Shown in pieces: positions 18,082 to 36,424 of a DNA stretch of 41,509 nt. The translations under genes and the position numbers were made by a program. This stretch comes from Planctomycetaceae bacterium (GTDB taxonomy: Bacteria > Planctomycetota > Planctomycetia > Planctomycetales > Planctomycetaceae), in the NCBI GenBank assembly GCA_020426325.1, contig JAGQQG010000054.1, positions 1 to 41,509 of the forward strand. Direction: 5' to 3'. A model generated the notes under the pieces. That model had not been told where the DNA came from, made no database searches, and was given only the letters and a program-made list of their open reading frames with translations. How positions within the stretch are numbered: the stretch's first letter is position 1; each line of letters starts with the position of its first letter.

Positions 18082-18199
18082 AAAAACTCGCAAATCAAGT
18101 GAACGTGACTCAATGTTAGACGTCTTGAAAACCCTCGACTGAAGGGAACATTCGACCTACCATCCTCAACTCCTTCAACCGTCCAGGCAAGGATGATTG

Positions 18200-18364
18200 A
18201 CCACGGAGACACTGAGCCACTGAGACGCCAAGGAAAGTCGATTGGCGGATTTGAGATGTGTCATCATGTAAATTCTGGCCTGTTCAACTAGTCGAGTTCT
18301 CGTCCGTGTGCTTCTGACGGAATGGACAGGGAATTGGTTCTTCATGCCTCCGTGTCTCTGTGGT
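18200..18364. repeat. short inverted-repeat element, CACGGAGACAC family, copy 1
   Basis: ACCACGGAGACAC (18200-18212) and GTGTCTCTGTGGT (18352-18364) are near-perfect inverted ends (12 of 13), 165 bases in all, lying wholly in the gap between the permease and the last ATPase. A second copy with the same ends lies at 25172-25315. There is no coding sequence inside, so it resembles a non-autonomous mobile repeat. Confidence 0.7.
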
Positions 18365-18382
18365 GACCGTCCCTCATCAAAC

Positions 18383-20197: not shown

Positions 20198-21126
20198 GAC
20201 GTTTTGCCCTCCGTCAGCTTCATGAACGCTGTCTCCATGTCCATCGCTTCCGGTTGGAACATGCGGATGCGGCCGCCGAGGCGGACGATTTCGGTGTGGA
20301 GGTCTTCGATGGCTGTTTCGTGCTCGCTGAGGCGGATGGCGAGACGGTCGGCCTGTTGATCGACGGATTCGACGCCGGGGATGGAACTGATCTGTTCAAC
20401 AATGCCGTTGAGAGGACCGCTGAGTTGAACGTGTACGGTCCGTTTGAGCGAGAGTTGCTGAAAGATGTCATCGAGCGACCCTTCCGCAACGAGTTCACCC
20501 TGCTCGATGATCCCGATGCGCGTGCACAGTTGGGCCAGCTCGTGGAGGATGTGACTGGAGATGAGGATCGTTTTCCCCATCTCCTGCATCGCCTTGAGGA
20601 GTTCTCGAACCTCGATACGGGCCCGTGGGTCGAGTCCGGAGGCGGGTTCGTCCAGCAGAAGCACATCAGGGTCGTGGAGCAGTACCCGCGCGAGGGCCAG
20701 TCGTTGTTTCATGCCGCGTGAGAGAGAGTCGACGGGGGCATCGGCTTTGTGCGTAAGGTCGGTCAGTTCGAGCACGTCGTTTACGGTGCGTAGCCGTTCA
20801 TCGCGAGACAACCGGTAGGCAGCAGCAAAGAAGTGCAGGTACTCTGCTGCGGTCAGGTCCTCGTAGACGCCGAAGAAATCGGGCATGTAGCCGATCTTCT
20901 CACGAATCACGTCCGGATGCCGGGCGACGTCAATCCCGTTCACACTGACCGTCCCCGCAAACTCCCGTTGAAGCGTCGCGAGGACCCGAATGGTCGAGGA
21001 CTTCCCCGCACCGTTCGGGCCGATGAAGCCGAAGACTTCCCCTTTGGGGATCTCGAACGACACTCCCCGCACCGCGTGGACGTTGCCGTATCGCACGTGC
21101 AGGTCCTTTACCGTCACCATGCTCAT
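20194..21126 (-). CDS. ABC-2 type transporter ATP-binding protein (first ATPase of the locus)
   Basis: A 310-residue cytoplasmic ABC ATPase with Walker A GPNGAGKSS, signature LSRGMKQR, Walker B LLLLDEPASGLD, the H-loop in ISSHILHE, and an about 90-residue C-terminal extension as in CcmA/GldA-type ATPases. It starts at ATG 21126, overlapping the upstream gene's stop as ATGA, and its own stop overlaps the permease start as ATGA. This is the tightest-coupled stretch of the operon, so this ATPase is the primary partner of the 604-residue permease. Confidence 0.94.
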   Translation of the reverse strand: MSMVTVKDLHVRYGNVHAVRGVSFEIPKGEVFGFIGPNGAGKSSTIRVLATLQREFAGTVSVNGIDVARHPDVIREKIGYMPDFFGVYEDLTAAEYLHFFAAAYRLSRDERLRTVNDVLELTDLTHKADAPVDSLSRGMKQRLALARVLLHDPDVLLLDEPASGLDPRARIEVRELLKAMQEMGKTILISSHILHELAQLCTRIGIIEQGELVAEGSLDDIFQQLSLKRTVHVQLSGPLNGIVEQISSIPGVESVDQQADRLAIRLSEHETAIEDLHTEIVRLGGRIRMFQPEAMDMETAFMKLTEGKTS

Positions 21127-23237
21127 TGAACCGGCTCCTCACGATAGAGTTTGCGATACAACACGATGTCCTCTCCCTCTGCGAGCGCGATCACCAGCAG
21201 CCAGGCGTGCGGATCGCTGCGGTCGAGGATCGCCAAATCTTCCAGCATCGGTCCGCATCCCGGCGATGTCTGCGAGACAACGCCAAACCAGCCCGGCTGC
21301 GATCGCACGCATAGCTCTTTCAGGAAGTCGATCTTCCGCTGACTCCAGTACCCGGCCGCCATCCAGACCTGCTGCAGTTCATCTTCGTCTTGGAAGAATT
21401 GCTCCGGTCCGATCAGGACTCTTCGCTCCTTTTGATGATACAAGTATGCACTTGCCTGACTTCCAAACGATGTCCGGATTCGCTGCGTGAGTTGATCGAT
21501 CTGTTTCTGATCCGACCAATTGATATTTGTGCGCCAGTTGAAGGATTGTGCCTCGGCCTTTTGGTCGGGACTTTGTTCTTCCGGCAAGGGAATCGACAAC
21601 GAGCGATTGAGTTGGGGTGTCCACTGGGCAATCTGCTGTCGAACCTCGAAGCGTGAAGGCATCCGCCCCAGGATTGCCGGTGCCCCGGACATCCCCTGCT
21701 GTTCCGGTTCATAGGACTGGGTCGCAGGGTTGTACTGCCAGTTGCTGGCCATCATGTAGCTCCCATGATTCAACGGCATGAACAGTGACCGCTGATAGTC
21801 GCTCCTCATGGTCGTCGATCGGCCGGGGAACAGCAGTTCGATCCGGTTCTCCCTCAGCGGTCGCCCGTCGTCATCCATGTCTCGAATTACGAGCGTGTTT
21901 CGATCATCGTTGGACGACATGTACTGGTCGGACGTCCAGACGGCCAGGCCGGTGAAGGCCGCGGTCATCACGGGGAACAGGACCCAGGTCAGCTTGCGCT
22001 GCCGCAACTTTCCCAGAAACCAGTAGTCAAACGGGCCGATGGCCCCGAGGTACAAGAGCAACAGAAGAAACATCAAACTGATGGGGACAAGTCGCAACCC
22101 GGACGGCAGCAGTTGCTCCAGCATGCCCGACCCACCGGTGATCGTCTGTGGGTACAGTCGTGAAGCCATCACCTCCAGCATCGAGTCATCCGTATTGCCC
22201 GAACCGCCCCAGCGACCGTCGAGACCGTATTCAATTGCCGCCTGCTTCACGGCATCCAGGTCCCATTCTCCCTGCTCAGCCACGCTCTCAACGTGGGCCT
22301 GCTGAAATTTCCAGAGGAAGGCAGTCGTACGTCGCCACTGGGGCGTTTTCAGTTCGCCGGGCCGTGTGATCTCGGAACTCGCGATAACGACTCGCCCCAA
22401 TCCGGATCGAACTCGGATCACATCCTGCTCATCCGGAAGGATCAGATGCCCTTCGGAGTTGAGTACGAGGCTGACCTCCGGCTGATCACTAGCGTCGACC
22501 AGTGCATCGAGGAAAGCGAGTTGTGGCCCGCCGACAGGTCCTTCCGAAAGCACGAGCAGACTCCCCCCGGCAAGCGTCCAGGCTCGCAGGGCATCGAGCT
22601 GTTTTTGCTTGATCCGTGCCAGTTCACTCGACAAGACCACCACAAGATCGTACGTGCAGAACTGCAAGGGATCTTCAGCCAGCAGATCAGCAGCCATGTT
22701 GTTCGTGATCGTCGTGACCTGGCTCTGCTCGGAAAGTGGATTGAACGACTCTAAGTCGAGCGAATCGACAACCCGGTTGACGTTGGTTGAGGGGAGTGAG
22801 GCATCTCCCACCACCAGCACCGCGAGCCGACGCTGCTCAATCCGCGGGACCCGCAGCAGGAGCGAGGGCAACGTGTGTCGTTCGCCGTCGTAATCACAGC
22901 TCATTCGAAGTTCGAACTCGCCGAGCGCGTCTTCAGCATGAAATGCCGGGAACAACAGACGATAAACTTGTTCCTCCTCCATGAGGTACAGCGGATCGGT
23001 TTCCAGTTGCACCAACGTCCCCTCAATGGAGTCGCGAAGCGAGAGACGCAACGCTCCATCGAATACCCCGGGGCCATGCCAGCGAAGCCGCAACGAGACC
23101 GGAATTGGCCCGTCGCTGCGTGCCTGCGGCGTTGATGCATCCACCTCCACACTCAGCGGCAGCTCTGCGTGACAAGTGCTTGAGGCGAGACCAAGCATCA
23201 CGCAAGAGGCGAACATCAACCTAAGGAGTTCTCTCAC
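21123..23237 (-). CDS. large membrane protein of MoxR/ABC-2 loci (amidotransferase-like fold, GldG-like context)
   Basis: A 704-residue protein with an N-terminal signal sequence, a long extracytoplasmic part and two transmembrane segments (about LVPISLMFLLLLLYLGAIG and LTWVLFPVMTAAFTGLAVW) with GPFDYWFLGKLRQRK between them. The extracytoplasmic part includes a beta-rich region and a flavodoxin/glutamine-amidotransferase-like region (DLVVVLSSELARI, WTLAGGSLLVLSEG), as in GldG/DUF4350-type partners of ABC-2 exporters. No catalytic triad is recognised. The start is GTG 23237, overlapping the upstream stop as GTGA, with GGAGG nine bases before it. It probably links the VWA/MoxR module to the exporter; that role is inferred from position. 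Confidence 0.8.
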   Translation of the reverse strand: MRELLRLMFASCVMLGLASSTCHAELPLSVEVDASTPQARSDGPIPVSLRLRWHGPGVFDGALRLSLRDSIEGTLVQLETDPLYLMEEEQVYRLLFPAFHAEDALGEFELRMSCDYDGERHTLPSLLLRVPRIEQRRLAVLVVGDASLPSTNVNRVVDSLDLESFNPLSEQSQVTTITNNMAADLLAEDPLQFCTYDLVVVLSSELARIKQKQLDALRAWTLAGGSLLVLSEGPVGGPQLAFLDALVDASDQPEVSLVLNSEGHLILPDEQDVIRVRSGLGRVVIASSEITRPGELKTPQWRRTTAFLWKFQQAHVESVAEQGEWDLDAVKQAAIEYGLDGRWGGSGNTDDSMLEVMASRLYPQTITGGSGMLEQLLPSGLRLVPISLMFLLLLLYLGAIGPFDYWFLGKLRQRKLTWVLFPVMTAAFTGLAVWTSDQYMSSNDDRNTLVIRDMDDDGRPLRENRIELLFPGRSTTMRSDYQRSLFMPLNHGSYMMASNWQYNPATQSYEPEQQGMSGAPAILGRMPSRFEVRQQIAQWTPQLNRSLSIPLPEEQSPDQKAEAQSFNWRTNINWSDQKQIDQLTQRIRTSFGSQASAYLYHQKERRVLIGPEQFFQDEDELQQVWMAAGYWSQRKIDFLKELCVRSQPGWFGVVSQTSPGCGPMLEDLAILDRSDPHAWLLVIALAEGEDIVLYRKLYREEPVQ

Positions 23238-25147
23238 GCAGGAATTCCTCCCGGGCGACGTAAATAGAGCCACCACTCGCCAAGTAAGACGGCGAAGGCC
23301 CCCAACGCCAGCCACGGCCACAGGGGACGATCAGTCGTCGCGGGGGCCGTCGTCGCGTCGACGGTCAGTTCACGAAAATGAATTTCGTCCACGCCGTGCA
23401 GCGACGTCTCCGTGGCATTGAGCAGGCTCGCTCCCACCTGTCGTACGACGTCGCCTCCCTCGCTGACGTCGTACGTTCCCACCGCTCGGGCCGCGACACC
23501 CTTCAAGATTCCTTCCACATCACTCGACTGTGTAGTAGCGAATTCACCCGGCCCTGTGATGCGGTAGTCACGCTCGGGCTTCAATGCCAGTGGGGGCAAT
23601 ACGCCGGTCGATGCTCCCCGGACATCAGACAGATTGGCCTGTTCGCGAGCCAGCGACACGAGGTTCGAGATGAGCACCGGGAAGCCGACGCGATACGGCA
23701 GCGTTGATCGGTCTGTATGAAACAGCAGAAAGCATGACAGCACGGGACCCTCACGCCGCTCAAGAATCAGCGGACCGGTGTTGCCATTCGCCAGGATCTC
23801 ATACCCCAACTGTTCAAATTCCGCCTCCTCGGCACCGCTCGCCAGCATCGGGACATCGGTGACCTCCATATCTGCAAACTGCACGTGCTGAAGCAGACGA
23901 CTGTCACGCTGCCAATCGATCACCTCACCCAGTCCCTCCTCTACCGTGACCAGACTCTGCACGTCCTCCGGCACCAGCCCGGTGAAGAACCGCGTCGACG
24001 CTTCAAGCTCTACATCGGAAGCTTGATCGGAGATGACAAGGTCATACGCCGCTCTCTGTGGATCGCCCTCACCCTGCGGCAACAACTCGATGTCACTCAG
24101 CACCTCCAGCGAGTGACGATAAGAGACCAGTTCGGTCGGGCAGTACACGCTCAGCGGTCGACTGATCGGCAGCTCAAGGTAGGCGACGTTGTCAGCAGCG
24201 AGCGAGTCAGTCCCGTCCGGTTGCAAGCGGACCACAAGCGATGCTGCGTCTGAGCTGTCGTACCGAAACACGAATCGCTGCGACTGCCCGGCCTCAAGCA
24301 CGACCGACTCTGGACTTCCGACCGGCTCGCCATTCGCCGAGAGTTGAACTTTCGCCGCCGTCTGACCGGCTGCGGACCCTTCGATGCGCACAAACACATC
24401 CCAGCGGTTTTCGTCCGACTTCCGGGCATTCAAGGCTGTGATCCCGATGTTCGCAGCCGGCTCGTCCAGTTTGTGGAACTGCAAGTCAAACGGCAGATCA
24501 AAGTCGACCACCGCCATCGGCTTACCCGCTCCGTCCGGGCGTGTGGGTAGATTTCCATCCGAGTAGAATCGGACCGTGCTGATGTCAAAAGTCCGGGCAA
24601 GAGCCTGTGCGAGTTGCAATCCTTCTTCAGGCCGGCTCGGCACCTCGTCCACCTTGATCGAGTCGAGTGCATCGAGCAGGATTCGCCGGTTGTCGGTAAA
24701 CTCTGTCAGACGCTGGGCTGAGTCGCTGACGGTGATCAGCGTGACGCGCTGATCGGACAGCAGGTGTTCAACGATCTGCCTCACTTCCTCCTTGGCAAGG
24801 TCGAGTCGCGAACGACCCTTGTCGTCCGTGGCAGCCATGCTGGCCGAATTGTCGATGAGGACGGGCAGATACGTTGCCGTCTCCGCGCCGCCGCGCACGA
24901 AGGGCTGCATCGCCGCCAACACCAGCAGGCACAGGCAGGCCACCTGCAACAGCAGGAGCAGGTTTCGCTTGAACTTCTGAAACGGCGAGTTGACCCGCTG
25001 ATCCTCAATCACGCTCTGCCACAAGGCCAGCGAAGGAATCTCCCTCCGCGGCCGCCGCAGCTTCAAAAAATAAAACACGACCAACGGCACCAGCAGGGCA
25101 AAAAACCAAGCCGCAAACGGAGTCGTGATACCAGGAAGCCAACTCAT
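23234..25147 (-). CDS. BatA-like membrane protein with von Willebrand A domain
   Basis: A 637-residue membrane protein. Residues 1-80 are the BatA-type N-terminal region: two transmembrane helices with FYFLKLRRPRREIPSL between them. The VWA domain follows (about 85-270) with the metal-site motif DNSAS and the strand VRFYSDGN. A long extracytoplasmic middle resembles an amidotransferase-like fold, and a final helix (LWPWLALGAFAVLLGEWW) anchors the C-terminus. Such proteins accompany MoxR ATPases and DUF58 proteins and are thought to assemble or regulate envelope complexes by Mg-dependent contacts. ATG 25147 has a strong GGAGG site six bases upstream. The stop overlaps the next gene by GTGA. 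Confidence 0.88.
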   Translation of the reverse strand: MSWLPGITTPFAAWFFALLVPLVVFYFLKLRRPRREIPSLALWQSVIEDQRVNSPFQKFKRNLLLLLQVACLCLLVLAAMQPFVRGGAETATYLPVLIDNSASMAATDDKGRSRLDLAKEEVRQIVEHLLSDQRVTLITVSDSAQRLTEFTDNRRILLDALDSIKVDEVPSRPEEGLQLAQALARTFDISTVRFYSDGNLPTRPDGAGKPMAVVDFDLPFDLQFHKLDEPAANIGITALNARKSDENRWDVFVRIEGSAAGQTAAKVQLSANGEPVGSPESVVLEAGQSQRFVFRYDSSDAASLVVRLQPDGTDSLAADNVAYLELPISRPLSVYCPTELVSYRHSLEVLSDIELLPQGEGDPQRAAYDLVISDQASDVELEASTRFFTGLVPEDVQSLVTVEEGLGEVIDWQRDSRLLQHVQFADMEVTDVPMLASGAEEAEFEQLGYEILANGNTGPLILERREGPVLSCFLLFHTDRSTLPYRVGFPVLISNLVSLAREQANLSDVRGASTGVLPPLALKPERDYRITGPGEFATTQSSDVEGILKGVAARAVGTYDVSEGGDVVRQVGASLLNATETSLHGVDEIHFRELTVDATTAPATTDRPLWPWLALGAFAVLLGEWWLYLRRPGGIPA

Positions 25148-25171
25148 GCTCGACCTCCGAGGTCGTGGATG

Positions 25172-25315
25172 CACCACGGAGACACGGAGACAGGGAGAAG
25201 GATTTGCTGATATCGGAGATGGCTAAGCATCATTCGCAAAGAGATCGATATGATGGCTCGCAACTTTGTTCGATCCACACGAAGTTTTTCTCCGTGTCTC
25301 CGTGGCTCCGTGGTG
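25172..25315. repeat. short inverted-repeat element, CACGGAGACAC family, copy 2
   Basis: The ends CACCACGGAG (25172-25181) and CTCCGTGGTG (25306-25315) are a perfect 10-bp inverted pair; further inward ACACGGAG and CTCCGTGT pair again. The element is 144 bases, has no coding content and lies between the DUF58 and BatA-like genes. Its ends match the element at 18200-18364. Confidence 0.75.
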
Positions 25316-25325
25316 AGCAGACTTC

Positions 25326-26225
25326 TCATCGCACCCATCCTCTTCGCAGGAGTTGATCAAACAGCACGTTCTTGATGTCTTGTTCGGAACTGACCGTCAG
25401 GAACCGTCCCTGGCGTTTGCGGCAGAGGGAGGCGAGGTGGTTGGAGAGGGCTTCGCGGTGTTCGTGGTACAGGCCGAGCAGTTCGCCGACCGAGGAGACG
25501 TCGAGGGTTTGATGGGTCTCCGAGTCGATGAATCGCAGGTCGCCGGTCAGTTCCGGATCGAGTTCGGTCGGGCTGAGGATTTGAATGGCGAAGATCTCCA
25601 GCCCCGCACTGTGAAGCAGGTTGAACGAGCGGGTCATGTCGCCGAGCGTGAGGAAATCAGAAAGCAGCACGACCACTCCGCGACCGCGATGCCGTTTGAG
25701 GGCCTCCTCGATCGCCGCCTCGATGGGGAATTCGCCTCCGCCTGGTAAATCTTCGAGGAAGGAGAACAATCGCCGCAAACTCGCCCGACCGGTGCAGGGG
25801 GGCAGGATCACGGGAGCCGCTGACTGTTCTGAACAGGAGTAAGCACTGACCCGTTCGACGTTGAACAGCCCCATCACGCCGAACGCGGCTGCCAGTTGTC
25901 TCGCGAGGTCGAACTTCCCCTCAAATTGCATCGATTGTGATGCATCGACGAGCAGCATCACATGCATCTCTTCCTCGTGCTTGTACAGCTTGAGGAACGG
26001 ATGATTGGTCCGGGCGAAGATGTTCCAGTCGACGTACCGCACATCGTCGCCGGGCGAGTAGTCCCGGTAGTCGGCAAACTCCGTGCTCGTCCCCCCCTTG
26101 CCGGACAGATGCTCCCCCCGTGAATGGTTGGTCTTGCGCTTGAGCGGATTCAACCGCATCCGCTCGACTCGAGCGAGCACGTCGTTTGGGAGCAACGCAG
26201 TAAATTGTGAGGTCGTTTCGGCCAT
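25326..26225 (-). CDS. DUF58 protein (VWA-like partner of MoxR)
   Basis: A 299-residue cytoplasmic protein. It opens with the family hallmark FADYRDYSPGDDVRYVDW followed by NIFART and KLYKHEEEMHVMLLVDAS, then a VWA-like fold with an intact metal site DASQS. VVLLSDFLTLGDM is the second conserved strand. DUF58 proteins are the usual neighbours of MoxR AAA+ ATPases and are thought to be their adaptor or substrate. Start ATG 26225 is preferred because the preceding 11 codons run back toward a hairpin with no ribosome-binding site. Gene order moxR-DUF58-batA is the standard layout of these loci. Confidence 0.92.
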   Translation of the reverse strand: MAETTSQFTALLPNDVLARVERMRLNPLKRKTNHSRGEHLSGKGGTSTEFADYRDYSPGDDVRYVDWNIFARTNHPFLKLYKHEEEMHVMLLVDASQSMQFEGKFDLARQLAAAFGVMGLFNVERVSAYSCSEQSAAPVILPPCTGRASLRRLFSFLEDLPGGGEFPIEAAIEEALKRHRGRGVVVLLSDFLTLGDMTRSFNLLHSAGLEIFAIQILSPTELDPELTGDLRFIDSETHQTLDVSSVGELLGLYHEHREALSNHLASLCRKRQGRFLTVSSEQDIKNVLFDQLLRRGWVR

Positions 26226-26289: not shown

Positions 26290-27300
26290 CTACGCGGCCT
26301 CTTCGGGCAATGAGATGACACAGTCCTGGATCAAACTCGTCACCATGATGTTTTCCGCCTGGCCGTCGTAGTTCAGCAGGGCGCGGTGGCCCAGGACTTC
26401 GTTGGCGAAATGCCGGACGTCATCGAAGGCAACGTGGGCTCTACCCTGACTCAACGCGCGGACGCGGGCGGCTTTGATGAGCGATTGAGCGGCGCGGGGG
26501 CTGGCTCCCCATTTGACGAACCGTTGCACATCCTGAGTGGCAAACTCCGATCCCGGATGCGTCGCGAGCACCAAACGACAGGCGAAATCGCGGATCGGGT
26601 CAGCGACGACAACCTTGCTCAGAACCTGCCGCAGCTTCAGGATGCGGGCCTCGTTCATCAGCGGGTGTACCTCCACGACCGGCTTGAGGATCGTCCGGCT
26701 GACGACCTCGTTCAAATCCGCTCGTGAGAGAAACGGCACATCGACCTTGAACAGAAAACGGTCCAGCTGCGCTTCCGGCAGTGGATAGGTGCCTTCCTGC
26801 TCCAGCGGGTTCTGCGTGGCGAGGACGAAGAACGGCTGATCGAGCGTGTGGATATATCCGCCGGTCGTCACGGTTCCTTCCTGCATCGTTTCCAGTAGGG
26901 CCGACTGAGTTTTGGGGGATGCCCGGTTGATCTCGTCAGCAAGGAGCAGCTGTGTGAAGATCGGCCCCTCACGGAACTCAAAGCGGTACCGGCCATGCTC
27001 GTCGGTCTGCATGATGTTGGTGCCGATGATGTCCGCAGGCATCAGGTCGGGAGTGAACTGGATGCGGCGGAACTTGAGGTCGAGTACGTGCGACATGGCC
27101 TTGACCAGTTCCGTCTTGCCGAGCCCCGGAACCCCTTCGAGCAGCACGTTGCCGCCACAAAACAGGGCCGTCAGCGTCGCTTCGACCACCCGATCCTGAC
27201 CGACAATGACCTTGCCGATCTCCTCACGTACTTGAGCAAACGTCTGCCGAAAATCATCCGCTTCCGCTTGCAGAGCTTCGATGTCGTTCTGTTGATTCAT
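26290..27300 (-). CDS. MoxR family AAA+ ATPase
   Basis: A 336-residue cytoplasmic AAA+ ATPase. GKVIVGQDRVVE is the MoxR N-terminal signature, GVPGLGKTELV the Walker A, LLLADEINRASPKTQSALLE the Walker B with the MoxR-specific continuation, LATQNPLEQEGTYPLPEAQ the sensor 1 region and DRFLFKV the arginine-finger region. MoxR proteins are chaperone-like and help insert cofactors or assemble protein complexes with VWA partners, of which this operon encodes several (DUF58, BatA-like, 994-residue protein). Start ATG 27300 has a GAGG site a few bases upstream. It lies 29 bases after the preceding gene. Confidence 0.95.
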   Translation of the reverse strand: MNQQNDIEALQAEADDFRQTFAQVREEIGKVIVGQDRVVEATLTALFCGGNVLLEGVPGLGKTELVKAMSHVLDLKFRRIQFTPDLMPADIIGTNIMQTDEHGRYRFEFREGPIFTQLLLADEINRASPKTQSALLETMQEGTVTTGGYIHTLDQPFFVLATQNPLEQEGTYPLPEAQLDRFLFKVDVPFLSRADLNEVVSRTILKPVVEVHPLMNEARILKLRQVLSKVVVADPIRDFACRLVLATHPGSEFATQDVQRFVKWGASPRAAQSLIKAARVRALSQGRAHVAFDDVRHFANEVLGHRALLNYDGQAENIMVTSLIQDCVISLPEEAA

Positions 27301-27329: not shown

Positions 27330-30314
27330 TCATTGATTCTCTTCCTTCCGGCGTCGTTTCATGTCCAGCAGTCGTGATGTCGTTGTTTCGGGGGTGTCCG
27401 TCGGACTCGCTTGCGGTTTCGCAGGCGTTCTGGTTGGTCGAGTCCGTGTTGGAGTCTCCTGTTTCTCGTAGGAAGGAGCACTGGCCGTCGTGGACCACGG
27501 AGTTGACGGTCGGCCTTTGTCGAGCTTCGTGTCGAGCGATTCCTTGCGACGCAACAGGGCCCCCATTGTCTCAGACGAATGTTCGCGTTTGCCGAAGCCG
27601 AGCCAGGTTTTGATGACCTGCCAGTCGAGTTGCACACGGCGGATGCCCACATCGATGGGCAACAGGCAGGCCAGCGCCATCAGGAACCAGTCAAAGATGG
27701 GCTGCGTGCTCTGTTTGGGCTGACGCCGGTTGAAGATCTCCTCGGGCTTCGACTCTCCATTAAGGATAATCCCCCCGGTTCGCTCGCGGATCTCGTCCAG
27801 CATAATCGGATCGGACCGGAACCGCAGGTATTCAGGCGAATACGGAACAATGAATCCCCCGAGCGTCCGGTCCTCACGCTCGCCAGCTGCTCCGACCGCC
27901 ATCACCTGATACCGTCCCGTTCCCCAAAGGGGAAACGTCGCCTGATACCGTCTAGGTCCGACCTGTTTGAGGTCGAGCGTTTGCTCCTGATCGCGAGGCC
28001 CTGCCACGGTCGCCTTCAGGTCGAGGAACGTCTCGTCCGGATGAAAATCCTCAACCATGATGATGCCGTCGCCGCCCGACATGTATGTCCACATCCGCAG
28101 ATCGCTGTCCTGCTTGACCCGGGAGACACGTGTGAGCAGCTGCGTGACGAATGCCCGGTACTGTTCCCAGTTGACCCAGTCTCTGCCCCATGCGGGTGAC
28201 AGGTCCGCGGTGAAGGCAGCCGTCGTGGCCAATCCATATCGCCAGATGGCCAGCACCGGATCAGTCTCTTCGATGTCCGCCAGATGATCGCGCGTGACGA
28301 GTATGGTCTCCGCCATCGGTTTCGATGTCGCGAGCACATAGCCGTGCAACGGCGGCAGTGCCTCAATACCGTCCAGTACCTGCGAAGGGAACTCGACCTC
28401 CGGCGTGAAGGTCTTTTCCTGCACCATGCTACGTTTGAGTGTCTTCGCTTCCTTGATGAAGATGCCCGGCAACTTGTTGGGATCGTCAGGAAAGTAGTAA
28501 CGTCCTCCGGTGGACGAAGCGATCGCTCGCATCTTCGAGATGTCCGATCCGCCGTGGGGAAAGATGGCGACCATGGAGACGCTGATCTGTTCCTTGACGA
28601 ACTCAGCAATGAGCTGAGGTGGCGGCGGAGTCGGATCTCCGTCGGAGATGATGATCATGTGCTTGGTGGCAGCATCGGATTCTTTGAGCCCATCCAACCC
28701 CTGCCTCATGGTCGGGCCGAATGCGGGCATGTCGCCTACGGCGAGGCCATTGATCTTCTTGACTAACTCGTCATATTCCCCGGCTGCCGTCAGTTCGAAG
28801 ACCCAGCCTTCCCCAGCCCCCGTGTAGGCCAGCAGCCCGACTTCATCCTGGGCGCTCAGCACCTTGATCGCCTGTTTGGTGATCCGCTGCCCCCAGGTGT
28901 TCCCTTCAGGAAACTCACACGTGTGCAGGATGATAGCAAGGGCCCCCTTGGGCAGGATCTTCTTCTGGGTGATGTCCATCGAGACCGGCAGTGCATCCTC
29001 GACGACCGTGCGGTGATAGCCGCCCGCTCCAAAGCTGTTCGGTCCGCCGACCATCAGAAAGCCGATCCCCTGGTTGTAGACGGCATCGTGCAGGGCCTGA
29101 AGTTGGACCGTATCGAAGGCCTCCTGCCCGACATTGACGAAGACCACGCAGTCATAAGGCATCAGAGAAAGTGGATCACGAGGCATGCCGTACGCTTCGA
29201 GCACCTGCACATCGCGTTCCCCCTCACGAATGGCCTGTGCCAGTGGTTCCCAGTCCGACGGATCGCCATCCTGGTCGTGGACGATGAGCACCTTCCCCTG
29301 CCCTTCGACATACAGGTAGTTGAGGACCGAGTTGTTCAGCGACAGATGGTCGCTTCCGTCCTCGGTCTCGATCGTCGCCTTGTACTCGTAATAGCCCGGC
29401 TCGCCCACTTTGATCGGGATCTCGATGCGAGTTTTTCCCGCATCCAGTTCAACCTCCTGCTCGGAGATGATCTGCGAGTTTTCGCGCAGCACCAGCTTTG
29501 CCTTGTCGGCGACAAGTGACGAGATCAACACCGATGCTTTGTAATTCTCACCCAGCTTGACGAACCGCGGCAGATCGACACGCTCAATCCAGATCTCGCG
29601 GTCGTACTGATACTCGATGGGGAGCACATCGACGCTGATGCCCCGCGAGGCGAGTTGATCGACGATGCTGTCGAGCGAGCCGGTCGTCTGTGTGCCGTCG
29701 CTGATGAGCACGATCCGCCCGCGCGTCTCCTCGGGGATCATGGCAGCTGAGAGAGTCAGAACTCGTTCCAGATCCGTCGCATCGGGAGTGATCTGAACAT
29801 TCTTGTTCTTCTCGAACGGAAACGACTGACGCGGCGGCAGCTCGACAGCCGCGTTCCGTCCGAAGAACACGACCCCGGCATTGTCCTTGTCCGGCTTTCC
29901 CGCACCGGCAGCCGCAACGAAATCCATGGCCCGTTCCACCGCACCATCACCCACCGAATCGGACGAGTCGACCGCGAACACGACCGTCAGCGTGTCACTT
30001 GTCCGCACCGATCGCGGCTCAGCCATCACCATCACAAACAGCCCGATCAACAGCAACCGGGTCATCAGGGCGACGAGTGCACGATTGCGACTGAGTCCGC
30101 TTGCTCCGTTGAGCCACATCCACCAGACCCACACGGACACGACCATCAGCCCGAACGCCGCACGTCGCGTGAACAGCAACGTCTGCGTCTGCTCGAGAGC
30201 AACGACGGTTGCTGCGTAGATCAGAAGATAGCACGCCAGCGGCAACACATCGCGCAGCGTCAACGCCCCACGCCGAGGCGGGAAGACGCTCCGCAATGAC
30301 CGCTTCCAGTTCAC
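27330..30314 (-). CDS. 994-residue membrane protein: VWA, amidotransferase-like and degenerate VWA regions
   Basis: About 994 residues. Two or three N-terminal transmembrane helices (LACYLLIYAATVVALEQ, MVVSVWVWWMWL, LLLIGLFVMVMA) precede a VWA domain with an intact metal site (VDSSDS). Then comes a Rossmann/glutamine-amidotransferase-like region (KVLIVHDQDGDPSDW, DCVVFVNVG, GFLMVGGPNSFGAGGYH). A second VWA-like region follows in which the metal-site strand reads ILHTCEF, lacking the DxSxS residues, though HMIIISDGDPTPP is conserved. A C-terminal membrane helix (FDWFLMALACLLPIDVG) leads to a basic, Thr/Pro-rich cytoplasmic tail. GTG 30314 overlaps the upstream stop as GTGA and has GGAG eight bases before. 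It probably scaffolds the MoxR/VWA assembly; no enzymatic triad is visible. Confidence 0.88.
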   Translation of the reverse strand: MNWKRSLRSVFPPRRGALTLRDVLPLACYLLIYAATVVALEQTQTLLFTRRAAFGLMVVSVWVWWMWLNGASGLSRNRALVALMTRLLLIGLFVMVMAEPRSVRTSDTLTVVFAVDSSDSVGDGAVERAMDFVAAAGAGKPDKDNAGVVFFGRNAAVELPPRQSFPFEKNKNVQITPDATDLERVLTLSAAMIPEETRGRIVLISDGTQTTGSLDSIVDQLASRGISVDVLPIEYQYDREIWIERVDLPRFVKLGENYKASVLISSLVADKAKLVLRENSQIISEQEVELDAGKTRIEIPIKVGEPGYYEYKATIETEDGSDHLSLNNSVLNYLYVEGQGKVLIVHDQDGDPSDWEPLAQAIREGERDVQVLEAYGMPRDPLSLMPYDCVVFVNVGQEAFDTVQLQALHDAVYNQGIGFLMVGGPNSFGAGGYHRTVVEDALPVSMDITQKKILPKGALAIILHTCEFPEGNTWGQRITKQAIKVLSAQDEVGLLAYTGAGEGWVFELTAAGEYDELVKKINGLAVGDMPAFGPTMRQGLDGLKESDAATKHMIIISDGDPTPPPPQLIAEFVKEQISVSMVAIFPHGGSDISKMRAIASSTGGRYYFPDDPNKLPGIFIKEAKTLKRSMVQEKTFTPEVEFPSQVLDGIEALPPLHGYVLATSKPMAETILVTRDHLADIEETDPVLAIWRYGLATTAAFTADLSPAWGRDWVNWEQYRAFVTQLLTRVSRVKQDSDLRMWTYMSGGDGIIMVEDFHPDETFLDLKATVAGPRDQEQTLDLKQVGPRRYQATFPLWGTGRYQVMAVGAAGEREDRTLGGFIVPYSPEYLRFRSDPIMLDEIRERTGGIILNGESKPEEIFNRRQPKQSTQPIFDWFLMALACLLPIDVGIRRVQLDWQVIKTWLGFGKREHSSETMGALLRRKESLDTKLDKGRPSTPWSTTASAPSYEKQETPTRTRPTRTPAKPQASPTDTPETTTSRLLDMKRRRKEENQ

Positions 30315-32155
30315 AACGACAACTCCACTGTGCGATGATTGCCCGTGTCGGCGACGAACACGCGTCCCTGCTGATCGACCGTGATCCCCCACGGCGTGTA
30401 GAACTGTCCTTCGTCGCGTCCGACGTTGCCGTAACGCCCGAGCAGTTTTCCCTGCAAATCGATCCGTGTAACTCGTCCGGCTCCATACTCGACGAGAAAC
30501 AGCGATGCATCCGGCCCCAGGGCGATGTCATACGGATAGTCCACATTCACCGAGCCGTCGCGTGCTGCATCGACAATCGTCTCCCGGTAATCGCCTTCAT
30601 CAGAGTAGACCTGCACACGGTTGTTGATCGCGTCAGCCACATACACCTGGCCGTCCAGCCAGACAACGCCGCTCGGACGTTGGAACTGTCCTTCATCAAT
30701 CCCGAAGCTGCCGAACGTCGTCACAAGGGTGCCGTCAACCTTGAACTTCTGAATGCGATCATTGCCGCCATACTCAGCCACATAGACATGCCCGGAGTCG
30801 TCCTTCGTGATCGCGACCGGATAGATGAACTGACCCGGTTCCTCCCCCAACTCGCCAAACATGCGGAGCACGTCACCCGTTTTGGTGAAGACCACGATCC
30901 GGTGATAGTGCGTGTCTGCAACTGCCACGGTGCCATCGTCGAGCACGCACACGCCTTCGGGCTTGCCGACGTCGTACTCAGGCATCCGCCACTGTCGATT
31001 CAGCTCGCCTTGCGCATCGTAGACGAGCACTCGCCCCGCGTTATCAAGAACGTACAACTCACCCTCGTCACTGACCGTCAGGCTTCGCGGTGCTGGGACG
31101 CTCGATCCGTCTGCGGGCATCTTGAGCGTTCGCGTGCCGGTCACGGGCAACTGCGGTCCCGCCTCCGACGACTGACAACCTGACCAGAGAAGACACATCA
31201 GCAGCACAACACAAAGTTGCAGAAGGACGCGAGTTCCTGCTGTGAGAGGAGCGTCTCCCTGCTGATGGACGATCGTGCGGCGATCCTGTGTCAGCTCATG
31301 TTCCAGCTCCGTCTCGACCAGTGAGCCAATGGTCCGACTCTCGTGTACCGTCAAACCTTCGTCACTGGCGGGAGTGAGACGGAGTCGCTCGGGCCTGATA
31401 CAGTGTCTCTGCATCGTTTCATGAGCTCCAGACAACCAGTGAGGAACGTCGCTCTCGTCGAACCAGTTCGCGGGCCCCAGCAGACGCGCCAGTTGCGGTG
31501 ACGGCGGTTCGGAATACAACGTCTGCACCGGCCCTTCATAACTCACGCGGCCTCGATCGAGACAGACCACTCGCGAGGCCTCGCGTAGCACAACATCCGG
31601 TGAATGAGTCGAGAAGACGAGGGACGTGGTCCGAGACCGGCAGTGATCGCGGATGAGCCGCCAGTAGTCGTCGAGAGAGGCCGAGTCGACATGCACCAGT
31701 GGTTCGTCCATCACCAGGACCAGCGGGTCGCTGCAAAGTGCCCTCGCCACCGCCAGACGCGATCGCTCGCCTTGCGACAATCGTCCGACATGAGCATCGG
31801 CGATCTGCGTCAGTTCGAACCCCTCCAATAGGGAGGACACCTCATACGTGCCGCTTCTGACCGGTTGAACGGTTTCCAGATGTTCACGGACCGTGAGATG
31901 AGGCCAAAGCCCAAAGTCGGGTGGTACCCAGGCGAGCGGAGGGCGAGCGCCATCCTGAGGGAAGCAGTCGTTGAATTGGCCTGCATCCGGTCTCTCAAAT
32001 TCGACCAAGAGATTCAGAAGTGACGTCTTGCCGGCGCCGGAAGGGCCCATCACAGCGGTCACGCCGGGCCGCACAACGAGCGAGACGTCGTCGACCCTTC
32101 GTGCCGACGAGCGACCGAGAGAGACGTGATTCAGTTCCCACAGAGTCTCAACCAT
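30311..32155 (-). CDS. fusion: importer-type ABC ATPase with TOBE domain + membrane segment + NHL-repeat beta-propeller
   Basis: A 614-residue chimera. Residues 1-230 are an importer-type ABC ATPase (Fbp/Thi/Pot class): Walker A GPSGAGKT (37-44), signature LSQGE (127-131), Walker B LVLVMDEP and switch His184 in STHS. The Q-loop Gln is absent: the position reads VPPDFGLWPHLTV. Residues about 250-313 look like the TOBE regulatory domain (CIRPERLRL, then APLTAGTRVLL). Directly after it, residues 311-327 form one hydrophobic helix ending LLWSGCQSS, which resembles a lipoprotein signal and lipobox (Cys327). Residues 345-614 are about six NHL repeats (GKPEGVCVLDDGTVAVADT, GHVYVAEYGGNDRIQKF, GRVFVADTGNHR). 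Topology implies a cytoplasmic ATPase and an extracytoplasmic propeller. It lies between its permease and the 994-residue VWA protein, overlapping the latter by GTGA. ATG 32155 has GGAG four bases upstream. Confidence 0.9.
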   Translation of the reverse strand: MVETLWELNHVSLGRSSARRVDDVSLVVRPGVTAVMGPSGAGKTSLLNLLVEFERPDAGQFNDCFPQDGARPPLAWVPPDFGLWPHLTVREHLETVQPVRSGTYEVSSLLEGFELTQIADAHVGRLSQGERSRLAVARALCSDPLVLVMDEPLVHVDSASLDDYWRLIRDHCRSRTTSLVFSTHSPDVVLREASRVVCLDRGRVSYEGPVQTLYSEPPSPQLARLLGPANWFDESDVPHWLSGAHETMQRHCIRPERLRLTPASDEGLTVHESRTIGSLVETELEHELTQDRRTIVHQQGDAPLTAGTRVLLQLCVVLLMCLLWSGCQSSEAGPQLPVTGTRTLKMPADGSSVPAPRSLTVSDEGELYVLDNAGRVLVYDAQGELNRQWRMPEYDVGKPEGVCVLDDGTVAVADTHYHRIVVFTKTGDVLRMFGELGEEPGQFIYPVAITKDDSGHVYVAEYGGNDRIQKFKVDGTLVTTFGSFGIDEGQFQRPSGVVWLDGQVYVADAINNRVQVYSDEGDYRETIVDAARDGSVNVDYPYDIALGPDASLFLVEYGAGRVTRIDLQGKLLGRYGNVGRDEGQFYTPWGITVDQQGRVFVADTGNHRTVELSL

Positions 32156-32231: not shown

Positions 32232-33671
32232 TCAGAATAACCGGTGAATGACGATACGAAATCCCCACCAACTCAATGCCATGAGTACGACGGGAGTGGT
32301 CATGGATGCGAACAACATTGCGGAAAGTCCGGAAATTTGTCCGTAATGCATGAGATTGTACAAAACCACAGGTGCGGGCGTCATGCCAGGCGGGGCCAGG
32401 AGCGAAGGGAGAGTCAGTTCGATGTACGCCCAGTAACAGAGGATCAACAGGCCCCCGATGCGTCCAGCGACATCCAGCCGCCAGAGCAGACTCGCAGACG
32501 CTTGCTGATGTATCGGACTCCCTGATCTGGCCAGCAATCTTGCGGCATAGACCGCTGACGAATCCCGGAGTTGGCCAACAAGCAAACGAATGAGCACAGC
32601 ACGCGGCAACAGGAACAGCACCTCAGCCACCACAACGGGGAGCGGGGTGTCGCGAAGTGTGACCAGTGGCGGCCTCTGCACCAGCCCTGTCACCCCCATT
32701 CCCATGGCTAGCGATCCCATCAGGCCCGGAAGCAGCACTGCCATAATTCCCATCCGTCCGAGACCTCCTAATCGGTGAATCACCAGTCCGCTCAAGACCC
32801 AAGTCAGACCTCCAGAAGTGATTGCAAACAAGACAGCAATGCCGATCTCTCGCAACAGGGTCGGGTGAGCACTCAGCACCGAGAAGCCCTGCCACGTTCC
32901 CCGCAACACGACCGTACCCGGCAATCCGGCCAAAGCAATGAGTGCCAATCCGACAAACGAAGCGACCGTCCATCGGTCTCCGCTGCTCGAACGCGCAGCG
33001 AGTTGTGCCACCTCACTTTTCTGATGAGTTCCCACGGTCACCAGCGACAATGTCGTCATGATCACGATGCCTTGGACGAGCACAGGAATAATCAGCACCT
33101 GCAGCGCCGTAGCCATCGTCAGCCCGCCCACATACCGGGTGAATAACCACTCGGTCCACCCGTCTGCCTGCATCAACGTCGCGACTTCTGATTCTTGGAA
33201 GGCCAGCAAAAACATCACCGCACCGGCTGGAAATAAGGAAAACAGATGATGCCGCAACCACTCGCTCACCAGACGCTGTCTGGCTTGTGACGTCCTTCTC
33301 CCCTCCAGGGGAGAGAGATGGAGCGCTGAGAGTCGTCTCACGTGCAAGGCGGATGCGCTGACCGGAGGCGAGGGAGAACAGACAAGCACCAGCACTCCGA
33401 TCGGGATTACCTGGAGCGTCACCAGCAGGGCGTAGAGCACTTCATTCCACATCGGGTGATGGACCAGTGATAACGCGAAATTGCGATACCCGTAGCCAAT
33501 CAACAGCCCCGGCACAAACACGGGCAGCAACGTCAATCCCCACCAGAACATTGCCCGCTGACCACTGAGCAACCGCAGCGATTGTTGAAGACGAACGGAG
33601 ACGATCAAACCTGCCATCGCGATGACCAGACTTCGCAACAGCGACCAGAGCAGCGCTGTTGAAAAAGTCAT
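32232..33671 (-). CDS. ABC importer permease (ThiP/FbpB-like, binding-protein-dependent)
   Basis: A 479-residue inner-membrane protein with 10-12 hydrophobic segments, about the size of the fused two-domain permeases of the iron(III)/thiamine/2-aminoethylphosphonate class. The pattern LLPVFVPGLLIGYGY and LFPAGAVMFLLAFQESEVATLMQ fits the first half, and LLPGLMGSLAMGMGVTGL with RAVLIRLL and YWAYIELTLPSLLAPPGM the second. A charged loop with the odd segment LSPLEGRRTS is encoded by a palindromic stretch (33297-33314). The start ATG 33671 overlaps the binding-protein stop as ATGA. With the genes on either side it forms a binding protein-permease-ATPase importer. Confidence 0.82.
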   Translation of the reverse strand: MTFSTALLWSLLRSLVIAMAGLIVSVRLQQSLRLLSGQRAMFWWGLTLLPVFVPGLLIGYGYRNFALSLVHHPMWNEVLYALLVTLQVIPIGVLVLVCSPSPPVSASALHVRRLSALHLSPLEGRRTSQARQRLVSEWLRHHLFSLFPAGAVMFLLAFQESEVATLMQADGWTEWLFTRYVGGLTMATALQVLIIPVLVQGIVIMTTLSLVTVGTHQKSEVAQLAARSSSGDRWTVASFVGLALIALAGLPGTVVLRGTWQGFSVLSAHPTLLREIGIAVLFAITSGGLTWVLSGLVIHRLGGLGRMGIMAVLLPGLMGSLAMGMGVTGLVQRPPLVTLRDTPLPVVVAEVLFLLPRAVLIRLLVGQLRDSSAVYAARLLARSGSPIHQQASASLLWRLDVAGRIGGLLILCYWAYIELTLPSLLAPPGMTPAPVVLYNLMHYGQISGLSAMLFASMTTPVVLMALSWWGFRIVIHRLF

Positions 33672-34708
33672 GGCGCCTGCTCGCTGGTGAGCCACTCAAG
33701 TGCTTCTCGTCGTACGTTTGCGAGGTGAGTTAACTCGACTGATTCCTTGGCCCACTCACTCAATCGGCGAACATCTTTAGATAAAGCCGACTCATCGACA
33801 GTACCGAGTGGAATCTGTCTCGCTTTCGAGGCAGCCAGTCTCAGTTCAACAGCCTCAGACAGCAGATAGTCGACCAACTGTTCAGCCTGCCGTCGCTTCT
33901 GCGTCCCGCGAATGATGGCCACGCTGTTTGGAATACAGATCGTCTCTCCCGAATCGATGCGGATCGGCAACATGGCTACCGGCGCTCCTTCATCCTGAGC
34001 GAGGAAGTAGTCGTCCGTGTCCGTCATGCCGAAGTCGCACACCCCGGCTGCCACCAGATCCTTGACAGTTGCGTTGCCCGGCACAACTTGCATCCCTCGC
34101 GACCGCATGTCCCGGAACCAAGACTGCACCTCATCGGCTCCCATGAACTGCCACAAGACCGCGAAGTGTGACAATGTGGTCCCAAACATCGGCTCCGCCA
34201 TCGCCATCCGCGAGAGATCACCGGAGAGTCGTTCGTCGATGGTCTCGACATCTGCGTGCATCTTGTCCGTATTGACGATCCAGACACGCAGTCGTCCTCC
34301 AAACCCGGACCACAACCCGGTCGGCTCTCGAAAACGATCAGGCATTCGCTGCCATCCCGGCCCCTGATACGGTTCCAGAACTCCCTGTTCAGCCAGTTCG
34401 ACCGTGCCGAGCAGTTGATTGTTCCAGAAGACGTCGCAAACCGGGTGCTCCTTTTCGCGAATGAGCCGTTGCACCAGCCCGAGTGACTTCGTTGCCTCGG
34501 TATCCGGCACAATGACGACCGGAACCCCCATCTGCTGCTCGAAGTCGCGGAGCACCTCTTCAGCATAGAGCAGATCGTGGGCGCAGTAGACGACCAATGC
34601 ATCGCGGGTTGTCGTCGAGACACGATACCAACCGGACGCGATGAGCAGTCCGATCACGATAACAACAGCACTCACTGCAACATGTCGACGGGAGTCACTT
34701 GCTGCCAT
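33668..34708 (-). CDS. extracytoplasmic solute-binding protein of the iron(III)-type class
   Basis: A 346-residue protein. An N-terminal hydrophobic segment (VAVSAVVIVIGLLIASGWY) acts as a signal or uncleaved anchor. The mature part matches the FbpA/FutA-like cluster of binding proteins: VVYCAHDLLYAEEVLRDFE, VVPDTEATKSLGLVQRLI, CDVFWNNQLLGTVELAEQG, FGGRLRVWIVNT and AIIRGTQKRRQAEQLVDYLLS. Ferric-binding relatives use paired Tyr residues near the C-terminus; I do not see such a YY pair, so iron is not assured and another ligand is possible. The start overlaps the coiled-coil gene by 14 bases and the stop overlaps the permease start. Confidence 0.85.
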   Translation of the reverse strand: MAASDSRRHVAVSAVVIVIGLLIASGWYRVSTTTRDALVVYCAHDLLYAEEVLRDFEQQMGVPVVIVPDTEATKSLGLVQRLIREKEHPVCDVFWNNQLLGTVELAEQGVLEPYQGPGWQRMPDRFREPTGLWSGFGGRLRVWIVNTDKMHADVETIDERLSGDLSRMAMAEPMFGTTLSHFAVLWQFMGADEVQSWFRDMRSRGMQVVPGNATVKDLVAAGVCDFGMTDTDDYFLAQDEGAPVAMLPIRIDSGETICIPNSVAIIRGTQKRRQAEQLVDYLLSEAVELRLAASKARQIPLGTVDESALSKDVRRLSEWAKESVELTHLANVRREALEWLTSEQAP

Positions 34709-36344
34709 TTGTGCCCGTCTTATCGAGGCTGTCGAAGTATTTTTTGATCCCGTCGTGATAGCCGGGGGGGATCTGCTCCTGGTCGATGGCTTCGCTCACA
34801 GACTGTTTGAGGTCGCTGACGATCGCACTGTATTCTAACTCAATCTCGTCCTCATCCCTCTCCGTCACGCCTTTCGTCTTGAGCGACAGCAGGATCTTGC
34901 CCTTCTTGATTGCTGACTTTGAGGTCTCGTCCTCAAAGTCCGTCTCGACCGAGTCGTCATGCTCCATCGCTTCGATTTCTCCCTGCCCACGCCCCTCGCC
35001 GTCGCCTGGCATGCCGTTCTCGTCGAGCATGGCGATGTCGTATCCGAGTTCAGCCATCATCTCTGCATACATTTCCATGTAGGCCTCCATCGACTCGCCC
35101 TTGGCCAATTCGGCCATCTCTTCGCCGTCCAGTTTCTCATCGTTGTTCAACCGCTTGGCCATCTGCATCGCTTCGAGGGCCTTCTCCAACTCAGCCAGAT
35201 CACGGGCAGACTGGGCAATCTGCTTGAGTTCCATTTCGGCGAGCTCCATGGCTTCGGACAAAGCTTCCATCTGTTCTTCTGAAAGACGTTCCCCTTTCCC
35301 GGCTTCCAACTCCTTCATCGCCCGCTCCAGCGCGGCTGCGAGCGGCTTCGAGTTCACATCCTCCTTAGCGAATTGATGAAGGTCTTCCAGCTTCTTCTGA
35401 AGTCGACGCATGGCCTCGGTTCGTTCGACCGGGTCCTGCATGTCGGCCAGTTCACTCATCTCTTTCTGCAGTTTATCCAACTCGTCCTTGAGTTCGTCAG
35501 CGTCACCTTCGCGAAGGTTCTTCGCCCATTGACGCGGCTTCGATTGCGACTGATCACCGAATCGTTGTTCCATCGGCTTCTGAGAAAGCAACTGCTTGAG
35601 TTGCTCGGCCCGTTCTCTCCACTGCTCGCCGATTGCCTTCTGATGCCCCGCAATAACGCGGGCATTCTCTGCCTGCTGCTTCGGCTGCATCTCACGCAGC
35701 GACGTTTTGAGGTCCTCCAGAGAACGTTCGATTTCCTCCGACGTCTCCGCATCCAAGTCGGCCTTCGTCAATGCACTCTTCCGCAGCTCTGTCTCCTTCC
35801 GCGCTTGGACGAGTTCCTCCTGTTGCAATTCCGCCTCTTTCGCAGCGGCAACTTTGCCAAACGGATCGAGCGTTGGCAGGAACAGACTTACCAGCATCAG
35901 CAACCCTAACGCTGCTGCAAGTTGCGAGGCCCCGCGTGCCCAATGCCAGGGAACGACCGACATTGGCTCAACACTTGGTGCCTTCGCCTCTGCATCACGA
36001 CCGACCAGCGGTTTGTAGTCTCCCGCTGCATTATCGATCATCGTCAGCGTGAGAAACAGGTCCTGCGTTCCCGCATACGTATCCACACGACGAGCCGCAT
36101 CGGAGAGCGTCGGTCGCCGCAGCACGATCGCCGTCCCCAACACAGCGATCAGCGGCAGCATCAGAATGGCTGGCAGCGAAAACCAGTCCGGAATCAACCC
36201 CGTGAACCGGCTGACCAGCAACAGGACCGCCACCACCCCCGCGAGCGCGAGACACGTCCAGGAACTCACCCGGCTCACACGAGCAGCGTGCAATCGCGTA
36301 AGGACACTTCGCAGCAAACTGTCTGACTTTGGAAACTCAATCAT
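34695..36344 (-). CDS. membrane-anchored long coiled-coil protein, first gene of the operon
   Basis: A 549-residue protein. Two N-terminal hydrophobic helices (LALAGVVAVLLLVS and ILMLPLIAVLGTAIVL) and a third near residue 155 (LAAALGLLMLVSLFLP) are followed by about 250 residues of Glu/Lys/Gln-rich coiled coil, then an acidic low-complexity stretch (GDGEGRGQGE, DFEDET) and a short basic end. This layout recalls DUF4175-type planctomycete proteins, a tentative match. It may scaffold the operon's membrane complex. Start ATG 36344 is chosen; a GTG at 36374 gives ten extra residues. It overlaps the binding-protein gene by 14 bases, so it belongs to the same transcript. Confidence 0.8.
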   Translation of the reverse strand: MIEFPKSDSLLRSVLTRLHAARVSRVSSWTCLALAGVVAVLLLVSRFTGLIPDWFSLPAILMLPLIAVLGTAIVLRRPTLSDAARRVDTYAGTQDLFLTLTMIDNAAGDYKPLVGRDAEAKAPSVEPMSVVPWHWARGASQLAAALGLLMLVSLFLPTLDPFGKVAAAKEAELQQEELVQARKETELRKSALTKADLDAETSEEIERSLEDLKTSLREMQPKQQAENARVIAGHQKAIGEQWRERAEQLKQLLSQKPMEQRFGDQSQSKPRQWAKNLREGDADELKDELDKLQKEMSELADMQDPVERTEAMRRLQKKLEDLHQFAKEDVNSKPLAAALERAMKELEAGKGERLSEEQMEALSEAMELAEMELKQIAQSARDLAELEKALEAMQMAKRLNNDEKLDGEEMAELAKGESMEAYMEMYAEMMAELGYDIAMLDENGMPGDGEGRGQGEIEAMEHDDSVETDFEDETSKSAIKKGKILLSLKTKGVTERDEDEIELEYSAIVSDLKQSVSEAIDQEQIPPGYHDGIKKYFDSLDKTGTNGSK

Positions 36345-36424
36345 AGGTCCATTTCCGAGTAGAACTGCGGTCACTACGTGTCACAGCAAGTGGTCGCTGT
36401 CAGATTATTATGCTGATTCAGTAT

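Follow-up and report, generated by a model that had tools for sequence, protein, structure and literature searches.

The gene at positions 30311 to 32155 of the window, i.e. of the whole 41,509-nucleotide stretch analysed (contig JAGQQG010000054.1 of the Planctomycetaceae assembly GCA_020426325.1), consists of two whole genes joined in frame. One encodes an FbpC-like ABC ATPase with nucleotide-binding domain (NBD) and TOBE domain, the other a six-bladed NHL propeller. This confirms the first-pass annotation, which had proposed the fusion from the DNA letters. From the sequence evidence presented below we regard it as probable that the product is a polyprotein: an internal signal would export the propeller, Lgt would lipidate Cys327 and LspA would cut the chain, leaving an ATPase and an NHL lipoprotein. 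While both halves belong to known families, a literature search, mostly without subscription journals, found no published record of an ATPase-propeller fusion and none of LspA cutting behind a cytoplasmic domain of 300 residues.

Architecture of the fused gene

A single open reading frame of 614 amino acids runs on the minus strand from an ATG at 32155 to a TGA at 30311 (Table 1). Pfam recognises ABC_tran at residues 22-153 of its product and NHL repeats up to residue 608. Within the NBD the Walker A, signature, Walker B (with its catalytic Glu) and H-loop motifs are all intact, and the motif positions tallied are conserved in 77-79 of 79 fused ATPases. The TOBE domain is barely visible to Pfam: TOBE_2 scores 19.4 bits at residues 252-313, below the cut-off of 21, and was detected (E 0.01) in just 14 of 52 alignment members. 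It is nevertheless recognisable from the strands at 251-314 of an AlphaFold2 model and from the alignment to 9j4r_B, which extends up to residue 314. Since the sequence alignment to 9j4r ends at query residue 314, corresponding to residue 331 of the 340 of FbpC, the ATPase half is whole.

The input alignment of the AlphaFold2 model comprised 52 fused sequences, namely the window protein and 51 of 63 listed relatives; identity of fused relatives to the window protein goes down to 42%. With a mean pLDDT of 92.6 its pTM is merely 0.54, which is expected from two rigid parts without fixed mutual orientation. At the ATPase end, the NBD is followed by a TOBE fold whose final strand comprises residues 309-314. 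A nine-residue helix (316-324) and a stretch with pLDDT below 50 (325-331) form the junction. Beyond it, the strands between 340 and 613 group into six four-stranded blades, of which the last is closed by strand 340-345. Foldseek matched the propeller half to the NHL domains of Thin and TRIM71 (TMt 0.84-0.88 for single-domain NHL entries) and the ATPase half to MalK-like ATPases, among them the ferric importer FbpBC of Thermus (9j4r).

Table 1. Features of the fused gene and its neighbours, in coordinates of the window.
Feature	Position	Strand	Basis
Fused gene (FbpC-like ABC ATPase, internal lipoprotein signal, NHL propeller)	30311..32155	-	ORF, Pfam, AlphaFold2 model
Nucleotide-binding domain, about residues 5-230	31466..32143	-	Pfam, motifs, FbpC alignment
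TOBE-like domain, residues 252-313	31217..31402	-	Sub-cut-off Pfam match, model, FbpC alignment
Last TOBE strand merging into internal lipoprotein signal, residues 309-326	31178..31231	-	Junction alignment, model
Lipobox Cys327, predicted lipidation and LspA cleavage site	31175..31177	-	Cys in 80/80 fused genes
NHL six-bladed propeller, residues 340-613	30317..31138	-	Pfam, model, Foldseek
Putative permease of the importer	32232..33695	-	Place between binding protein and ATPase, hydrophobic sequence (by eye)
Solute-binding protein	33668..34708	-	Nearest solved relatives ferric-iron-binding proteins (4r72, E 1.9e-14)
vWA / GATase1-like protein	27330..30314	-	Pfam; GTG start
MoxR-type AAA ATPase (AAA_3)	26290..27300	-	Pfam
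DUF58 protein	25326..26222	-	
BatA/vWA protein	23234..25177	-	

The junction and its internal lipobox

It had been suggested that the junction marks the point where the ATPase family ends and a lipoprotein signal begins. The lipobox LWSGC, with its Cys at residue 327, follows shortly after the end of the FbpC alignment and puts the junction exactly there. In 67 aligned fused ORFs the last TOBE strand (approximately LxxGxRVxLR) leads into a leucine-rich core and this into Gly-Cys, with no linker between. G326-C327 is invariant in all 67, and when 13 further distinct loci are added, giving 80 fused genes from 30 coded genera and from named genomes, the Cys is kept in every one (78 GC, 2 SC). Such conservation places the lipobox beyond chance. 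Positive n-region, hydrophobic core and lipobox with conserved Cys are thus all found, yet the signal lies inside the chain, at residues 309-326 of 614, and not at its N-terminus as in ordinary lipoproteins.

Measured from the last charged residue to the Cys, the core of the fused forms spans 12-18 residues (median 13, n=80), compared with 9-27 (median 14, n=32) in the signals of stand-alone propeller lipoproteins. It is more hydrophobic in the fused forms (mean 2.39 versus 1.97, p 3e-5 by a statistic that ignores relatedness). Of the 80 fused junctions 49 conform to a strict lipobox pattern, that of the window gene among them, as do 26 of 32 separate lipoproteins, where one unscored propeller (AC) was entered as a miss. 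For 41/67 aligned fused forms against the same 26/32, Fisher's test gives p 0.065, which makes the internal sites, if anything, the looser ones.

LspA was detected in 40 of 40 genomes searched, and the window's genome, the sole one searched for Lgt, holds two matches to it. Given a short hydrophobic stretch led by positive residues, a lipobox Cys and both enzymes, export, lipidation and cutting should follow at this site. The following course can be envisioned. Residues 1-313 would form the ATPase of an FbpABC-like importer, and the last TOBE strand (RV.L.) would at the same time serve as n-region of the internal lipoprotein signal peptide. Once emerging from the ribosome, this signal would be inserted N-in/C-out, so that the propeller is exported; Lgt would then lipidate Cys327 and LspA would cut between residues 326 and 327. 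The first product would be a cytoplasmic ATPase with a short hydrophobic membrane tail derived from the signal peptide, the second an ordinary NHL lipoprotein, which may work with the products of the vWA/GATase-MoxR-DUF58-Bat genes downstream.

Distribution of the fusion

A search for the same architecture in other planctomycetes, as the first-pass annotation had recommended, was successful. At a threshold of 1e-45, 127 of 170 family genomes match, and in 75 of these one match spans residue 327; the 43 genomes without a match at this threshold include the single-contig assemblies G119 and G120. Seventeen of the 75 junction-crossing genomes are single-contig assemblies, and 74 were read (G129 was left out). 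In a phylum sample of 392 genomes (1e-70), 26 of 30 matching genomes cross the junction, and the fusion occurs in four further families, represented by G220, G333, G392 and G521. Within the window's genus, the frame is open over the junction in all five genomes. As the junction is crossed in many genomes, single-contig ones included, the fusion is not an assembly accident.

Among the fused relatives, L018 carries a TAA inside the NBD and L184 a frame change in the propeller. Three loci from genomes titled Verrucomicrobia (L040, L044, L046) hold fused or adjacent genes and are placed among planctomycete rows of the tree, which may reflect either transfer or mislabelled MAGs. Locus L047, a propeller with a weak ABC match in another frame, was excluded from every count, and duplicate loci of one contig or gene were dropped.

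Separate forms and history

Close relatives with two genes and a stop near residue 313 had been named beforehand as the observation that would speak against a fusion. None occurs within the genus, where the fused state is uniform, and they are present in other genera of the family. By eye, most ATPases of these split loci stop close to the TOBE strand that forms the fused junction, and the propeller has a lipoprotein signal of its own at its start, which bears out the idea that two whole genes were joined. The signals of separate propellers end in Cys in 32 of 32 cases (one AC, not GC). Of eight loci tested, three split ones (L103, L106 and L133) show no detectable TOBE domain adjoining the NBD of the ATPase, which has a separate propeller gene beside it. 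Four genomes, G010, G034, G095 and G099, have the two halves on separate contigs: the ATPase is accompanied there by binding protein and permease, and the propeller has vWA/GATase beside it. A single frame, an internal signal and two products that stand alone elsewhere, features expected of a polyprotein gene resolved by a signal peptidase, are found together.

In a concatenated tree, whose 120 rows comprise 79 fused and 25 adjacent forms, 8 without a neighbouring ATPase seen and 8 of 15 outgroup rows (L184 left out), the fused and not-fused states require 11 changes, and starred branches force at least 3. A propeller-only tree (107 rows) needs 9 changes, with 3 forced. Both states even occur within one genus code, g28, where L017 is fused and L103 split. 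The halves were thus separated several times, with at least three changes forced, and this repeated separation fits products that work apart. Support is poor for many deep branches and the rows include several long ones; one tree places the unlinked clade at its base, the other inside. With the deep order weakly supported, the trees are compatible both with one early fusion followed by several losses and with several separate fusions.

Genomic neighbourhood

The fused gene stands between an importer module and a second set of genes (Table 1). As in FbpC-type operons, a binding protein and a permease accompany the ATPase. The permease is putative, with no Pfam match at E 0.1 and no NCBIfam match at 0.001, and in NCBIfam the binding protein shows sub-threshold matches alone, to 2-aminoethylphosphonate systems. 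A ferric-type substrate is our best guess, because the nearest solved relatives of the binding protein bind ferric iron and the ATPase matches FbpC. At its other end, the TGA stop of the fused gene overlaps a GTG start of the vWA/GATase gene as GTGA; another in-frame GTG lies further upstream. Two more observations concern the surroundings. A 559-aa protein with a sub-threshold Pfam match (34695-36374) precedes the binding protein, and its relatives take the same place in many loci. Beyond the Bat genes, positions 17119-21126 encode a GldA-like ABC ATPase, a GldF-like permease and a further ABC ATPase.

Neighbours were counted at E 1e-5 in loci with at least 1.4 kb on the respective side (2.4 kb for the binding protein), and misses may equal divergence. 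The broken L184 was filed as adjacent in these counts, so that 79 fused and 26 adjacent loci here equal 80 and 25 elsewhere. Upstream of fused genes a permease-like ORF was found in 63/71 loci and a binding protein in 35/39, downstream a vWA/GATase ORF in 74/75; the clearest exception is L139 (G005; fused, single-contig), with no vWA/GATase within 6 kb downstream. The corresponding values for adjacent split genes are 14/24, 6/10 and 22/24. For eight propellers without an ATPase beside them, the permease is absent (0/5) and the vWA/GATase ORF always present (7/7). In other families of the class, 13 of 15 propeller loci have this ORF downstream, two of the 13 about 3 kb further along, and none is seen in L146 and L154; no ATPase of the FbpC-like kind was seen upstream in these families, in loci other than L143, which begins at the propeller. 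Since the propeller keeps the vWA/GATase gene also without the ATPase, it seems to be primarily part of the vWA/GATase-MoxR-DUF58-Bat genes. The two modules are separable, and the importer module seems to have come to lie in front of the propeller and these genes.

Fate of the fused chain

The first-pass annotation had gone further and proposed that the propeller is tied through the membrane to the ATPase and controls the transporter physically. The chain would then stay uncut, or be lipidated without cutting, and the external propeller, permanently coupled to the ATPase, would modulate transport. A single continuous frame in so many genomes agrees with this, and the higher hydrophobicity of the fused cores, a point against cutting, could also suit an anchor. 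That fused loci keep importer and vWA genes together is a second such point, as a functional tether would explain it too. Another point in favour of the tether came from the Q-loop. Its Gln position, as aligned with the Gln of FbpC, is taken by Pro79 (31919-31921) in the window ATPase. Gln is present in only 9 of 79 fused compared with 24 of 31 unfused ATPases, and most fused forms have Pro, His, Ala or Ser instead, as if the coupling to the permease had altered with the fusion. However, this link was lost under phylogenetic control, where three independent pairs on starred branches gave a median p of 1 in the sign test. With so few independent contrasts the association, though strong in raw counts, does not count. 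Furthermore, a membrane span would usually be longer than this core, for which the model shows just a nine-residue helix followed by a low-confidence lipobox. The conserved Cys would lack an explanation unless Lgt or LspA acts on it, and LspA was found wherever it was searched. The halves separate repeatedly, and other families of the class pair the propeller with vWA/GATase, not with this ATPase. As the repeated separation is joined by a site that resembles a cleavable signal, we consider the tether less likely than the polyprotein and, taken by itself, rather unlikely.

A more elaborate version keeps the intact chain lipid-anchored in its middle and supposes an importer ATPase with rewired coupling to the permease, in line with the Q-loop Gln missing from most fused forms, which would be held and gated across the membrane by an external propeller that docks on the vWA/MoxR proteins and thereby links nutrient import to them. 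We judge such an arrangement improbable.

Internal initiation offers another route to two products: a second start in the end of the TOBE domain would yield a separate lipoprotein and the full-length chain would be a by-product. A usable in-frame ATG, GTG or TTG is indeed available in 67 of 80 fused genes (ATG in 22/80), but no start position is common to all, and 13 of the 80 have no such codon that leaves a positive n-region. In the window gene itself, the stretch 14-45 codons ahead of the Cys is free of in-frame ATG, GTG and TTG; in this gene, the propeller signal can hardly be made except within the ATPase chain. Moreover, without a stop codon the ATPase frame would still be read through. 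Hence, this explanation appears very improbable.

Finally, an assembly or sequencing artefact, in which an error removed the stop between two genes, might be suspected from the 424 contigs of the window assembly and from the interrupted frames of L018 and L184, but can practically be dismissed, as the junction is also open in the 17 single-contig family genomes, in G521 and in all five genomes of the genus; the single-contig genomes with the same junction refute artefact or pseudogene as a general explanation.

Comparison with known systems

Cleavage of the chain by LspA thus remains the reading we prefer, and a related principle is known from Bradyrhizobium, where signal peptidase I acts on the cytochrome b/c1 polyprotein FbcH after the polytopic cytochrome b. 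In FbcH, the nearest precedent, a bacterial polyprotein is likewise split at a signal peptide within the chain. In the window gene, by contrast, the site is a predicted LspA site and lies behind a soluble ATPase.

With FbpC/AfuC-type importer ATPases such as that of Thermus thermophilus FbpBC (PDB 9j4r), the window ATPase shares NBD and TOBE domain over residues 23-314 as well as the operon partners, an FbpA-like binding protein and a putative permease. It differs from them by the lipoprotein signal and the propeller added after the TOBE strand, and by Pro79 at the Q-loop position. Its propeller has the six-bladed fold of the NHL-repeat proteins Thin, TRIM71 and TRIM2; it stands in the context of a bacterial envelope lipoprotein, without the RING or RNA-binding context of those proteins.

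A Pfam match to bpMoxR led us to consider the MoxR-vWA beta-propeller ternary conflict systems, which also combine MoxR, vWA and propeller in one neighbourhood. According to PMC7159879, the vWA protein of these systems carries the propeller at its C-terminus and MoxR often has a GXXXTAKS loop. Neither of the two vWA proteins of the window has a Pfam propeller match, its MoxR loop reads GVPGLGKT and AAA_3 far outscores bpMoxR. On this definition of the systems we rejected the assignment.

Significance

The fusion is a widespread natural case of a soluble cytoplasmic enzyme and a lipoprotein that share a chain with the lipoprotein signal at its centre, and its state changed several times inside one family. 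With it one could ask whether a signal placed behind a folded domain of 300 residues is still accepted by LspA and Lgt, and bacteria could use it to keep a cytoplasmic and an envelope protein at a fixed ratio. In addition, it connects an NHL lipoprotein with a vWA/MoxR/Bat operon that has been little studied and that the lipoprotein gene adjoins even beyond the range of the fusion.
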